DNA of 64,000 bases from NCBI RefSeq assembly GCF_002355595.1, contig NZ_AP017422.1:3596001-3660000 (forward strand), read 5' to 3'. The notes below the pieces were generated by a model. That model was not told the origin of the DNA. It ran no database searches and worked only from the letters and a program-made list of their open reading frames with translations. The translations under genes were made by a program, and so were the position numbers. This DNA comes from Filimonas lacunae (lineage in GTDB: Bacteria > Bacteroidota > Bacteroidia > Chitinophagales > Chitinophagaceae). Positions 54,374 through 59,652 of the stretch are shown piece by piece; the stretch's first letter is position 1, and every line of letters begins with the position of its first letter.

Positions 54374-54384
54374 GAAACGTGGCA

Positions 54385-55704
54385 ATGAAAGAACAAACCA
54401 ACATTCCTACCGGCAAGGTGGAACGTGCCGGCAAATTTGTAACCACCGGTTTAAAGGTAGGCACCAACTACCTGAAGCACTACAGCAAAAAGCTAATGAA
54501 CCCTTCGCTCAGTAAGGAAGAGTTACATGCAGATAATGCAGAAGATATTTACGAAACCCTCAGCAACCTGAAAGGCAGTGCCTTAAAAGTAGCGCAGATG
54601 CTGAGTATGGATAAGGGCATGCTGCCCAAAGCTTATACCAACCGGTTTGCGATGTCGCAATACAGCGCTCCGCCTCTTTCCGGCCCGCTTGTCATTAACA
54701 CGTTCGTAAAAACACTGGGTAAAACACCCAACCAGTTGTACGACAAATTTAATATGCAGGCTTCCAACGCCGCTTCCATAGGTCAGGTTCACAAAGCCGA
54801 GAAATGGAATAAAGCACTGGCTGTTAAAATACAGTACCCCGGCGTAGCCAATAGTGTGAAGTCAGACCTCCGCATTGTAAAGCCTTTTGCTATACGCATT
54901 GTAGGTATGAACGAAGTGGACATGGATAAGTATTTTGATGAAATAGAAGGCAAGCTATTAGAAGAAACCGACTATCAATTAGAACTCAAGCGTTCCATAG
55001 AAGCCTCTGCTCAATGCGCTCATATTCCTAACCTGGTATTTCCTGCCTATTACCCCGAGCTATCCAGTGACCGGATTATTACAATGGACTGGCTGCAAGG
55101 CTTTCATTTAAAGGAATTCCTGGAACATAATCCCTCACAGGAAATACGTAACGCTATTGGACAAGCCTTGTGGGATTTTTACCAGTTTCAGGTGCATGCT
55201 CTGAAAAGAGTACATGCCGACCCACACCCCGGCAACTTTCTCATGCGAGAAGATGGAACCGTTGCTGTGTTCGACTTTGGCTGTATCAAAGAAATCCCGG
55301 AAGACTTTTACATCAACTACTTCCTGCTTACCAATAAGGAAGTACTAAAGGATGAAGTAAGACGCAAAGAGATTTACACCAACCTGGAAATGATTCACCC
55401 CAGTGACACAGAAAAAGAAATCGTCTTCTTCTCAGGCCTGTTTCAGAAAATGATAGACCTGCTGACACTTCCTTTTACGGTGGACAGTTTTGATTTTGGC
55501 GATGAGATGTATTTTAGTGAAATATATGATTATGTAGATTACCTCTACAACCTGAAAGAAGTGCGGGAAAGTAAGGTGGCCAGGGGATCGAGACATTCCC
55601 TGTATATTAATCGCACTTACTTTGGCCTGTATTCTATTTTAAATGACCTGAAAGCAAATATCAATACCAGCCAGGCACGTATACAAAGTATGATTCACAT
55701 ATAA
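54385..55704 (+). CDS. ABC1/AarF/UbiB-family atypical kinase
   Basis: 439 residues from the ATG at 54385 (an in-frame GTG six bases earlier is less likely). Family features: the KxGQ-like motif LKGSALKVAQMLS, an Ala-rich loop ASNAASIGQVHKA, invariant Lys in LAVKIQYPG, catalytic HADPHPGNFL, and metal-binding VFDFGCIK. Such kinases support ubiquinone or isoprenoid lipid metabolism. Menaquinone-using Bacteroidota still carry them with unclear targets. Paired with a TetR-like regulator, which suggests conditional expression. Confidence 0.9.
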   Translation: MKEQTNIPTGKVERAGKFVTTGLKVGTNYLKHYSKKLMNPSLSKEELHADNAEDIYETLSNLKGSALKVAQMLSMDKGMLPKAYTNRFAMSQYSAPPLSGPLVINTFVKTLGKTPNQLYDKFNMQASNAASIGQVHKAEKWNKALAVKIQYPGVANSVKSDLRIVKPFAIRIVGMNEVDMDKYFDEIEGKLLEETDYQLELKRSIEASAQCAHIPNLVFPAYYPELSSDRIITMDWLQGFHLKEFLEHNPSQEIRNAIGQALWDFYQFQVHALKRVHADPHPGNFLMREDGTVAVFDFGCIKEIPEDFYINYFLLTNKEVLKDEVRRKEIYTNLEMIHPSDTEKEIVFFSGLFQKMIDLLTLPFTVDSFDFGDEMYFSEIYDYVDYLYNLKEVRESKVARGSRHSLYINRTYFGLYSILNDLKANINTSQARIQSMIHI

Positions 55705-55962
55705 TAAACTCCAACAAGTCACTTACATAGGGTCTGTACAGTGCTCCCCTTATGGAGCTTCGTACTATATGAAGGATATGCAAGTGCTGCTTTCGGGAAC
55801 TAAAATACAACAGCTATCAGCTGCGCAACTCTAATATAAAATTTCCATTTTTTATCGATTTCGGCGTCAAATAGCTCAATTTACATTAATTGCGACAGTC
55901 AAATACTTTCAAAAATGAAAATTGAGTCAATATTTGTGATTTTGGCACTTTAGATTTTCTCC

Positions 55963-56508
55963 ATAAGGTTGGTCCATCACGCCAGGGAGTTGCCTGAGCA
56001 TTCCAGGGAACTCCCTGAAATGCCCGGAAGGTTGTGGCATCCTTTCAGGGAGTTCCCTGATTTGTCCGGAAGGTTGCCTGACCATTCCAGACAACTCCCT
56101 GAAATGGCCAGAAGGTTGTGGCATTCTTTCGGGGAGTTCCCTGATTTGCCCGGAAGGTTGTCTGACCATTCCAGGATACTCCCTGGAATGGTCAGAAGGT
56201 TGGAAAATTTGCCGCAAGAGTTCATGGATTTGCCCAATAAGTTGGTGCATGTGTCCGGCAAGTTCTGGGATTATTTCAGAAAACTTGTCCGGCAAATGCC
56301 GGAACTTGCTGGAAAGTCTGGCGAGTACTGGCATCTTATGCAAGTACTCTCTGGAATGATGCCAGTACTTTTGGAAGGCTTCTGAAAGTTCTTCCGGTAA
56401 ACGCCGGAACTTCCGCAGCAGTTGCAAGTACTGGCTGGAAGCATGCTACAACCCTCTGACACGATGCGCGTGTTCTTGCGAGAGATCAAGAAGTTCAAAA
56501 TTACCGGG
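55963..56508. repeat. 21-bp periodic degenerate tandem array (about 26 units)
   Basis: From about 55963 the sequence falls into consecutive 21-bp units with no insertion or deletion across ~546 bp. Clear units start at 55984, 56005, 56026, and so on in steps of 21 to 56488. Common cores are GGAAGGTTG, AGGGAGTTCCCTGA and GAAATGGCC in the first half, AAGTACT and CCGGAACTT in the second. Neighbouring units are often inverted complements (for example 56163-56172 with 56183-56192). Units 56026-56109 and 56110-56193 repeat as an 84-bp block. Long frames cross it on both strands, but they begin only at TTG codons. It fills the gap between convergent genes. Confidence 0.9.
56325..56368. repeat. 11-bp perfect inverted repeat within the array
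   Basis: GTACTGGCATC (56325-56335) and its exact complement GATGCCAGTAC (56358-56368) with a 22-bp spacer, showing that the second half of the array also contains base-paired units. Confidence 0.8.
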
Positions 56509-56544
56509 TACGAAAAAGCCCCCTTACTTATCAGGTAAGTATGA

Positions 56545-59500
56545 TTACTTCCCATTCAACATATTCAACAACAGCTGCTGTCCTACCACGTTAGCAGGAT
56601 TGGTAGCCTGCGCATTAAAGGTGTTCATAGCCGCATTCTCTCCATCTCCTTCTGCCATGCTTTTGGATTTCACACCAGCGATACAGGAGGTAAAGTCCAG
56701 CGTACTCAATATAATTTCCCCCCTGCCATGCCGGATGATACTTAAAGCGGAATATACTTCCTGCTTATGATCGGACACACAACCTACCACTGTTTCTCCA
56801 TTCAACATACGCATGCCTGAACGGCTTTTGTTATAAGCAGCAAAACACTGATACTCCCAATTGAACACACATGCCTGGGGCAAACCTGCAAACAATGGAT
56901 GTTCTTTTACGAAGAAGTTGCCACCATACCAGGTTACACCCAGGGGTTGAGTTCCCCTGTAGTCTATCACCTCTTTCTTAGACAGGAAGGTTGCCCAGTT
57001 TTCTGCACCGCCGGCAATTACAAGGGTATTGCCATTATTTACCCATTCCAATATATCTGTTACCAGTTGATTACCCTGCAGTGTGGCAAGCCCGCTCACT
57101 ACCATTACATTACCAGCCGGTCTGCCAGATTGATAAGATGTGTACGGAACGCCAATAGAATGGAAATATTGTTGAAATAGCCCGGAGGTGTCGGCCACCA
57201 CCAGTTTATCTGTAACTTTTGTAGCATTCAGCTTCACCGCAAATACCTGGTCATCCCCTGTAGCCACCTGTTTTTGCTGCTGACGTAACACAGCTTTAAT
57301 AGTAGTGTATCCAGCTTTATTTATGGGTATCTCTACTCCCTTTAACAGTAATTGACCGTATGTAACACCGCCTACAATGGCAACATTGGCGGTTTTAGTA
57401 AAAGTAGCAGAACCATCGGATGCTGTAGCGGTTATCTCCAATGTGGCCTCCCCTTTTACATCCTTTTCATTCACGATGAAAAAGTCGGCAGTGACAGCAT
57501 TGCCTGTGGCTACTACTTTATGGTTTAGTTTTACCGCCACATACAGCGGCTGGTTATAACGCGCAATCAATTCCGCATCTCCTTTCAGATTGCGATAATT
57601 GTCTACTATGCCGGAGTGATTTTCCAGTTTCATACTTTCCCAGCCATTCACCGCATAACCGTCATTTACATTATTAATACGTACGTTTTCTATTACCCGG
57701 CCCTGGTAATAATAAGCCACGTTACCCATTTGGCGTGTAAGGCTATCTACATTGGGAAATGCTTTGGTAAAACCACGGGCTTTCAAAAAAGTATCATATG
57801 CATCGTACCATTTCAGATAAGCATCGGTTTCCCATCCCTGGTCTTTGCCTGTTTTCAGAATCTCTTCCTTTATTAGCTGTAAGCGTGGCGGCGCGCCAAT
57901 AGCACCCTCTTCACCCCAATAAACAATTTCATCTTTATGATCGGTGTATTTAATATACTTATCCGGGCCGGAATACACATTATCATGATATACACCCGGC
58001 CCACCGGCATGATGCTGATCAAACCAACCGTAGTTGTAAAAAGTAGTATCGTAGGGTAACAGATGCCTTTTGTATTTAGGGTCAGGTTCGTTTATTTTAA
58101 TAGCGCCATTGCAGGAGTTATAGGTCATAATACGGGAAGGATCTAAACTATGCCCTGCCCTCATTTCTATATCATCCTGTAATTGTGGTTGAGCACCCCG
58201 TTCGTTGTGCATGTTATAAATAACCAACGAAGGATGGCTGCGGTCGCGGCGTATCATACGCAACAGCTTTTCCGTACGTACTGCCAGGTAATAAGCGGTT
58301 TGTTTCTTTTCGAGGTCGTTTTTGGGAGTAAACAGCTGATCGGGATACTGATTGCCACCCGGCTCTTCAAAATACAACAAGCCCAATTCATCCGCCACGT
58401 TTAACACATTGGTTTGCCCGATGGTGCGATGAAAATTCAGCATGTTCAAACCCAGACGCTTGGCATCAGCTACCTGCTTATAAGCCAATTGATTGGAAGG
58501 TGCTATGCCATTCACAGGCCAGAAGCCCCACGAAATGGAAGTTCGCAACACGATACGTTTATTATTGAGATAAAACTGATTATCGCCATTCACGTTCCGC
58601 ACTTCCAGCCAGCGAAATCCAAACCGCCGTGTATCTTTATCAGTAGTACCGTTTACACCCCGCCACTGTACACTTACCTCATATAAATCAGGATGATCCA
58701 CGTCCCATAGTTTTGCTTTGGGCACATAGGCGTCTATTTCAATAGTATGGGTTCCGGCAGCAATAGAAGTAGCTTTCGTTTGCGTAAACAGCACCTCCTT
58801 TGTTTTGATATCTGACACTTTTATATCGTAGCTACCGCTAACAGAAGTTGCCCCTACATTTTCTGCGGTTATCTCAAAAGTGGCGGCATATACATCCGGC
58901 TTGTTCTTTACAAAAATGTCGCTGATAAAAACGGCATCTGTAGCCTGTAACCACACCTTACCAGTGATGCCCCCAAACCCATGGCTTGGTTGGGTACGAT
59001 ATTCGCCCCACATAAAATTCTGACTATCCCGCCAATCAAAATTGCCGTTAGGGTCAGTAATACGTACCGCTATTTCATTCACCGCGCCAGGAGTAACCGC
59101 GCTGGTGATATCTACATCAAAAGGAGTACTGTTCACCAAATCGTACCCCACCAGTTTTTGATTCACAAACACCTCGGCCCGGAAACGGACGCTTTCAAAC
59201 TTCAAAACCACATGTTTATTTTTAAAAGTAGCAGGCACCATTATTTTAGTGGTAAACCACGATACCCCAAGGTAATTGCCCGAAACACCAAAAGCATTCC
59301 CATTCTTTCCCCAATAATATTGCTCCACCGTGGCTGGTAAATGAACAGTTTTGGAGGAGCCGGTAGCAAGCGTTTTCCATCCGCCTGTAGGTATGTTTAC
59401 AGGTATAGACTGGATATGAACGGGTGGCGTATACAGGGAATCGTTCTGCCATTTAGCCGCAGTATCCAGCCATAAACTCCAATTATTGCCAGACAGGTCC

Positions 59501-59595
59501 ATTACCGTTCGTCCGGTTTGCGCTGCTGCTTTACTAAAAAATAAGCCACTGAAAAATGCCAGCCCTGACAAGAGCGACCTGAAAGGAAATTCCAT
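56545..59595 (-). CDS. secreted glycoside hydrolase family 2 protein
   Basis: 1016 residues from the ATG at 59593-59595 (an earlier frame start is TTG). Signal peptide (SGLAFFSGLFFSKAAAQT). Sugar-binding jelly roll ~90-230, immunoglobulin-like domain ~235-340, TIM barrel ~345-640 with acid/base in VIYNMHNERG (Glu near 463) and probable nucleophile in VYWGEEGA (near 562). C-terminal beta domain 680-800, then a ~200-residue part with VMVVSGLATLQGNQ and NTLVIAGGAENWATF that resembles a ThuA/glutamine-amidotransferase-like fold. The family includes beta-galactosidases, mannosidases and glucuronidases; substrate not determined. No SusC/SusD adjacent. Confidence 0.9.
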   Translation of the reverse strand: MEFPFRSLLSGLAFFSGLFFSKAAAQTGRTVMDLSGNNWSLWLDTAAKWQNDSLYTPPVHIQSIPVNIPTGGWKTLATGSSKTVHLPATVEQYYWGKNGNAFGVSGNYLGVSWFTTKIMVPATFKNKHVVLKFESVRFRAEVFVNQKLVGYDLVNSTPFDVDITSAVTPGAVNEIAVRITDPNGNFDWRDSQNFMWGEYRTQPSHGFGGITGKVWLQATDAVFISDIFVKNKPDVYAATFEITAENVGATSVSGSYDIKVSDIKTKEVLFTQTKATSIAAGTHTIEIDAYVPKAKLWDVDHPDLYEVSVQWRGVNGTTDKDTRRFGFRWLEVRNVNGDNQFYLNNKRIVLRTSISWGFWPVNGIAPSNQLAYKQVADAKRLGLNMLNFHRTIGQTNVLNVADELGLLYFEEPGGNQYPDQLFTPKNDLEKKQTAYYLAVRTEKLLRMIRRDRSHPSLVIYNMHNERGAQPQLQDDIEMRAGHSLDPSRIMTYNSCNGAIKINEPDPKYKRHLLPYDTTFYNYGWFDQHHAGGPGVYHDNVYSGPDKYIKYTDHKDEIVYWGEEGAIGAPPRLQLIKEEILKTGKDQGWETDAYLKWYDAYDTFLKARGFTKAFPNVDSLTRQMGNVAYYYQGRVIENVRINNVNDGYAVNGWESMKLENHSGIVDNYRNLKGDAELIARYNQPLYVAVKLNHKVVATGNAVTADFFIVNEKDVKGEATLEITATASDGSATFTKTANVAIVGGVTYGQLLLKGVEIPINKAGYTTIKAVLRQQQKQVATGDDQVFAVKLNATKVTDKLVVADTSGLFQQYFHSIGVPYTSYQSGRPAGNVMVVSGLATLQGNQLVTDILEWVNNGNTLVIAGGAENWATFLSKKEVIDYRGTQPLGVTWYGGNFFVKEHPLFAGLPQACVFNWEYQCFAAYNKSRSGMRMLNGETVVGCVSDHKQEVYSALSIIRHGRGEIILSTLDFTSCIAGVKSKSMAEGDGENAAMNTFNAQATNPANVVGQQLLLNMLNGK

Positions 59596-59652
59596 AAGCA
59601 AACTTTATATGTACAATCAATCGTAGCCTGTTCAATAAGTCATATATCCAGG

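Follow-up and report, generated by a model that had tools for sequence, protein, structure and literature searches.

An array of 21-bp units lies between two genes of Filimonas lacunae, and the question it raises is whether its regular spacing reflects a protein with seven-residue repeats, an RNA fold or a DNA structure. The window (the whole stretch of DNA that was analysed, 64 kb in length) lies within a single contig of 7,814,405 bp, and the genome of F. lacunae NBRC 104114 is reported at 7,814,405 bp (PMC4945802). The locus comprises the following features.

54379..55704, plus strand: ABC1 atypical kinase, the left neighbour (PF03109; also in F. zeae, L046)
55840..55959, no strand: left flank duplicated with the array (copies L001, L002 and L003; partly L007)
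about 55960..56508, no strand: 21-bp periodic dyad-symmetric array of about 26 units, one ARYT core each
56509..56539, no strand: right flank duplicated with the array (copies L001-L003)
56545..59601, minus strand: glycoside hydrolase family 2 (GH2) protein, the right neighbour

The array at 55963-56508 was confirmed as a real, strict 21-bp grid. A sequence-only reading had described about 26 units at 21-bp spacing, and this was borne out: base identity within the array was 0.39, 0.45, 0.42 and 0.53 at lags of 21, 42, 63 and 84, and 21.0 bp was the best fractional period. The lag-21 score in a 320-bp sliding frame reached its maximum of 0.44 at 55961, compared with a mean of 0.27 (sd 0.03) over the 64-kb window. 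TRF recovered just the better-kept segments (55989-56235 and 56338-56376). The presence of inverted units also held, since the reverse-complement self-match gave a z of 6.5 against 4.3 for the top of 30 composition shuffles. Most units contain the ARYT core as AGTT or AACT, and the symmetry axis falls in the middle of this core. Because units of both orientations are intermixed, the array is dyad-symmetric about the core.

The F. lacunae genome contains eight places that match the array at E < 1e-60, the window's own included; the seven others showed 84-90% identity over the matched part. Five genomic copies were aligned over 483 columns with zero gaps, and copy L006 was short by exactly eight units, which agrees with the earlier statement that the array carries no indels. 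One copy (L008, also L037) has the same neighbour genes as an array of F. zeae (L039), and when this orthologous pair was aligned with gaps allowed, 13 of them fell in the half that has diverged more, so that indel depletion is unsupported for the pair. A test of indels against substitutions in this pair gave no difference at the penalties used, with the second half too diverged to align, and an ungapped comparison of the pair cannot settle the indel question.

The boundaries first assigned, 55963-56508, held for the array itself, but the duplicated stretch is longer. Two other copies and the window share about 700 bp (approximately 55840-56539); therefore, the flanks were duplicated too. The left flank terminates in ACTTTAgWTTTTC, variants of which mark the array edge in the eight copies, with the variant ACTTTATTTTTTC in L004, L005, L006 and L008. 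Read by eye, this flank also has GTCAAATA words that recur, and CTCAATTT and AAATTGAG as an inverted pair, which is somewhat like the motif sets of the leader described below. In the right flank, a short sequence resembling a hairpin, with a T run after it, was seen by eye on the minus strand; the terminator scan did not return it. No promoter or terminator signature was found at the array (one promoter-like site with 0.8 expected, and three terminator-like sites with 1.1 expected). The element had been placed between convergent genes, and the kinase on the plus strand and the GH2 gene on the minus strand are indeed convergent. However, this setting is incidental, because other arrays occur between convergent, divergent or co-directional genes. 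F. zeae also has this kinase gene, followed there by different genes and by no array. Thus, the window array was not seen at the corresponding F. zeae site; a clean empty site was rejected because the genes to the right differ.

The occurrence of such arrays was surveyed with a detector covering periods of 12-60 with the 3-bp background subtracted. The F. lacunae sample consisted of 55 stretches of 20 kb (1.10 Mb) that were not chosen for arrays, and five further stretches with already known loci were left out. Twelve matches were obtained, nine at 21 or 42 and one each at 22, 35 and 15, and ten intergenic arrays were left after reading. The matches at 22 (L219) and 35 (L212) were arrays of the 21-bp kind on reading; L218 (42) and L184 (15) were rejected as coding repeats. 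F. zeae gave five matches in 16 stretches (0.32 Mb), all at 21 or 42. The third genome of the genus gave one period-21 match in 34 stretches (0.68 Mb), which was rejected as a coding Ala/Leu repeat. Also rejected on reading were L225 (21), a coding or low-complexity repeat, and L094 (MAG Bacteroidetes bacterium isolate M1806), called at 21 and then at 14, a low-complexity repeat. In the same scan, none of 59 loci of other genomes (1.20 Mb, nearly all Chitinophagaceae) matched at 21 or 42; by period only, the matches in relatives were at 18, 24, 27, 36, 41, 45, 47, 48, 56 and 60, among others. Relatives with arrays of the same period, which the sequence-only reading had named as a check, were seen in the F. 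zeae scan and among loci of other Bacteroidota described below.

The period was more constant than the sequence. The best period was 20.85-21.2 in 46 of 49 arrays, the exceptions being L160, L219 and L265, and mean identity over the 49 arrays was 0.457 at lag 21 versus 0.24-0.27 at the other lags from 15 to 29. In three arrays, the best period (21.5, 21.55 and 21.7) was no multiple of 3. Of 23 arrays tested, 18 had a stronger dyad symmetry than any of three coding-repeat controls, whose highest z was 5.3; L144, L145, L147b, L199 and L221 did not. Unit consensuses differed between most arrays, which fall into several unrelated sequence types with the 21-bp period kept. Within arrays, units diverge to 40-50% identity while the grid persists. 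No A/T periodicity at 10-11 bp was found in the arrays, and hence no sign of sequence-driven bending. Separately, L219:7160-7475 contains near-perfect palindromes (TTGTAAGTACTTACAA) with a superperiod of 87 (22+22+22+21), off the strict 21-bp grid. One IS3-family element was copied inside two different arrays, at about 8.7-10.4 kb of L138 and about 0.2-1.8 kb of L203, and short target repeats of 3-4 bp were seen by eye at these copies.

An uncharacterised protein of about 207 aa, here called X, recurs beside the arrays, an association that lay outside the view of the sequence-only reading; as a whole, that reading is partly supported. X gave 17 matches in F. lacunae, 18 in F. zeae and 0 in the third Filimonas genome; intergenic arrays were found in the first two and not in the third. 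X and the arrays share their distribution across the three genomes. Among the best 30 of the 35 Filimonas matches, 27 had a period-21 array, with 21, 42 or 43 as its best period, no more than 1.5 kb upstream of X; three of the 27 arrays are weak (L248, L252 and L266). These loci are paralogs and not independent, and L260 and L262 encode the same protein. At L219/L258 the array is 1.7 kb upstream, past another gene, and at L261 and L267 no array was found. Random 1.5-kb segments contained an array in 8 of 600 cases in F. lacunae and in 2 of 600 in relatives. In the paralogous loci L242 and L243, the X proteins are 79% identical, yet the unit sequences differ; the relatives L242, L244 and L247 retained similar unit cores.

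A search of 296 Bacteroidota genomes at E 1e-10 revealed X-like genes in five genomes besides F. lacunae. Outside Filimonas, an array was present upstream in 12 of 19 X loci (11 by scan plus L289, counted after allowing for a cut contig end), from four of the five genomes and from three families, including Filimonas's own. L305 and L307 have the array downstream of X, and L282, L288, L299, L303 and L309 have none. For each of the 14 array-bearing loci outside Filimonas, periods of 14-60 were compared and 21 or 42 came out best. Among the F. lacunae sample arrays together with the window (n = 11, L218 omitted), X was present in the same stretch in three cases and absent within the stretch in eight. 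The 64-kb window belongs to the latter: neither an X gene (searched over the whole window) nor an X-type leader (profile search) is present in it. On these grounds, the array in the window is an orphan.

For the X proteins given, NCBIfam, PADLOC and PHROGs yielded no match within the limits used, and Pfam yielded just scattered weak matches of single members (best E 0.0049). Against solved structures, only marginal matches were obtained (best E 0.011). The C-terminus is called FN3-like because one distant homolog had a sub-threshold fn3 match (E 0.024) and two weak matches among solved structures were to FN3 domains. The N-terminus is helical by eye. Family searches recognised no DNA-binding domain in X. 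No X was found in plasmids or phages with one X protein searched, nor in viral contigs with two. Two further uncharacterised genes, Z and Y, adjoin some X loci (L037:4658-5275 and L037:5330-6532, both on the plus strand). Y (400 aa) gave four matches in F. lacunae, six in F. zeae and 0 in the third genome. Z (205 aa) gave three matches in F. lacunae and none in 59 other genomes, a set outside which F. zeae lies; in F. zeae, Z is present beside L039.

The Filimonas X loci also carry an upstream leader of about 300 nt, recovered in 25 of the 30 loci by a profile that 14 of the 25 had built.

L242-L265, for example L264:1090-1500, plus strand: X leader (profile and covariation)

The array precedes the leader in 16 of the 25 loci and is nearer X than the leader, or overlaps it, in six (L248, L249, L251, L252, L254 and L265); in the other three, no array was scored within 1.5 kb. 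Some blocks of the leader are conserved between paralogs, and columns 87-95 form a 9-pair helix with columns 254-262 in which the letters covary. The leader's covariation score over three helices was 0.607, versus 0.05-0.14 with the partners slid, a score somewhat favoured by deriving the structure from the same alignment of related sequences. Shuffles reached the score in 0 of 500 cases in four of five measures and in 1 of 500 in the fifth, and pairing of a leader's own arms exceeded all 5000 permutations. A motif of about 8 nt is specific to each locus and covaries between distant parts of the leader. In many loci it occurs as two direct copies about 11 nt apart with inverted copies about 150 nt later, and the leader also contains a covarying hairpin with a ACCGGTTACTGCGCAG-like loop. 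Because the motif recurs as a direct repeat, the motifs may be DNA sites for a protein specific to the locus as well as an RNA helix. The leader is a possible new RNA family or operator set. Of 186 genomes of the family, DNA similarity detected it in two, F. lacunae and F. zeae. The motif was not enriched in the locus's own array, and no link between leader and own array was found.

The 21-bp grid, the dyad symmetry, the sequence turnover and the association with X are direct observations. The explanation that we tentatively prefer, and to which we give somewhat less than an even chance, is that the window array is one of the dispersed non-coding copies, here an orphan, of an X-linked module, and that it would serve as a DNA platform with sites in phase. 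B-DNA makes two turns in 21.0 bp, and a DNA platform is the most likely of the explanations because the unit sequence turns over while the spacing stays at two turns. Such an array would line up many symmetric putative sites on one face of the helix. The candidate binder would be a cooperatively binding protein, either X itself or a chromosomal DNA protein, and the platform may act like a centromere, iteron or operator array. The fuller form of the module would be the one beside a gene of family X, where the array might control or localise the X locus; orphan arrays would be extra sites or duplication remnants. The gap-free copies, the constancy of the period, the dyad symmetry, the association with X and the IS3 elements within arrays all speak for a DNA platform, as do the shared distribution of X and arrays in the genus, the three periods that 3 does not divide and the lack of a conserved RNA fold in window-type arrays. 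The eight arrays lacking X, the X loci lacking an array and the absence of a bending signal count against it. So do the failure to recognise a DNA-binding domain in X, the five arrays with dyad symmetry no higher than the coding controls, the leader motif that is not enriched in its array, and the gaps in the L037/L039 alignment.

A different possibility is that transcription of the array yields a tandem-repeat RNA to which X or a partner binds, which would make the locus a ribonucleoprotein system laid out like a type III toxin-antitoxin system. The array's position upstream of X in most loci examined and the leader's RNA-like covariation are in its favour. So is the folding of the window array: single strands folded better than shuffles (z -8.2 and -7.9), a strength that is also expected from any set of inverted units. 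The sequence-only reading had predicted a chain of RNA hairpins, and its folding check succeeded on single sequences of both strands and failed on conservation. In the five-copy alignment, a compensatory change was found in 4 of 162 pairs and the covariation term was +4.7 kcal/mol, which has the wrong sign, so that no single fold shows conservation; a conserved RNA fold in window-type arrays is accordingly not supported. Rfam gave 0 matches above the gathering score in window positions 55000-57500 and in 15 X loci. Furthermore, the X proteins given matched no PADLOC defence or toxin-antitoxin family, the array is found on either side of the leader, and the leader motif recurs as a direct repeat, as DNA sites would. 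DNA rather than RNA is favoured because the array shows no conserved pairing, and we regard the RNA explanation as rather doubtful.

The arrays might also be a neutral or selfish satellite, generated by slippage or unit copying with a 21-bp ruler, for which X loci are merely frequent hosts. Such a satellite would amplify and homogenise intergenic DNA in some Bacteroidota, and several observations fit it: the units change from one locus to the next in most cases, including between the close X paralogs L242 and L243, copy L006 differs by whole units, IS3 insertions are tolerated, and many arrays are orphans. It is at odds with the X association in genomes of three families, with a grid maintained although units diverge to 40-50% identity, and with the dyad symmetry. 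We consider it unlikely.

The remaining explanation is that the array is, or was, a gene with seven-residue repeats. The period is a multiple of three, and long frames cross the array on both strands. These had been said to start only at TTG, which is true of the frames of 138 aa (plus) and 166 aa (minus); however, a 94-aa frame on the minus strand starts at ATG. The minus frame is open through the array in six copies (L001-L006) and interrupted in L007 and L008; the plus strand has in-frame stops in some copies. No ATG start of the minus frame is common to the copies, and its tails diverge just past the array edge. Several X-linked arrays contain stops in all frames over the scored span, edges included. 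Codon-position bias, which the sequence-only reading had named as a check, was not significant over the whole array: variable columns among the five copies were 44/157, 53/158 and 35/157 by position mod 3 (p = 0.17). Nor was it significant in the orthologous pair, with 33, 25 and 21 of 84 each (p = 0.24) and 49, 36 and 45 of 77 each (p = 0.36). Thus, neither the whole array nor the ortholog pair has a significant excess of third-position substitutions. The minus-strand third position was favoured in two of the 13 subsets tested, each within the first half of the array (37/78 vs 22 and 18, p = 0.02; 26/78 vs 12 and 13, p = 0.03). The window array is therefore probably non-coding, as had been proposed, with a hint at the minus strand from these two subsets. 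Given also the dyad symmetry and the sister arrays with a period of 43 or 87, a heptapeptide-coding origin is very unlikely.

Neither X nor the leader matched a family, and no report of such arrays was found in the open-access papers searched; the claim that arrays, X and leader are new is bounded by these searches. We put at about even the chance that these loci represent an undescribed and widespread locus type of Bacteroidota, consisting of X and an array set by a 21-bp ruler and dyad symmetry and not by sequence, with units largely specific to the locus, a leader motif of about 8 nt in Filimonas, and orphan arrays spread through the chromosome. If this is correct, each locus would have a specificity of its own, in a nucleoprotein or ribonucleoprotein system that recognises itself. 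Selection would then see the spacing, not the sequence, of dozens of arrays between the genes of each genome, which would show how an element of DNA or RNA can stay functional despite sequence turnover. It would also explain many of the intergenic repeats of these genomes, and the array and covarying leader motif that belong to each locus would give the unnamed family X a built-in test of its function.

Among known systems, CRISPR loci are likewise periodic intergenic arrays, with a constant repeat and unique spacers; the units of the window array diverge along their whole length. REP/BIME elements are also dispersed intergenic palindromic repeats (for REP, in part, the survey PMC12306157). 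They differ in that one palindrome is conserved in many copies, whereas here the consensuses differ between most arrays, several unrelated unit sequences occur per genome, and a strict 21-bp grid and an association with X are present. Type III toxin-antitoxin systems (ToxIN) have, as here, tandem repeats upstream of a gene for a protein of about 200 aa. The present units are more numerous and shorter, with no conserved fold in the window-type array, and X matched no known type III toxin family in PADLOC, Pfam or NCBIfam at the limits used. Iteron and centromere-like arrays include RepA iterons, parC/ParR and TubR sites. They differ from the present arrays, whose unit sequence varies by locus, which occupy many loci per chromosome, and whose X has no match to Pfam or NCBIfam replication or partition families. 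Nevertheless, the arrays described here consist of phased direct or inverted repeats, as those do, and in both, many phased sites stand a whole number of helical turns apart, next to a gene for a candidate binder.
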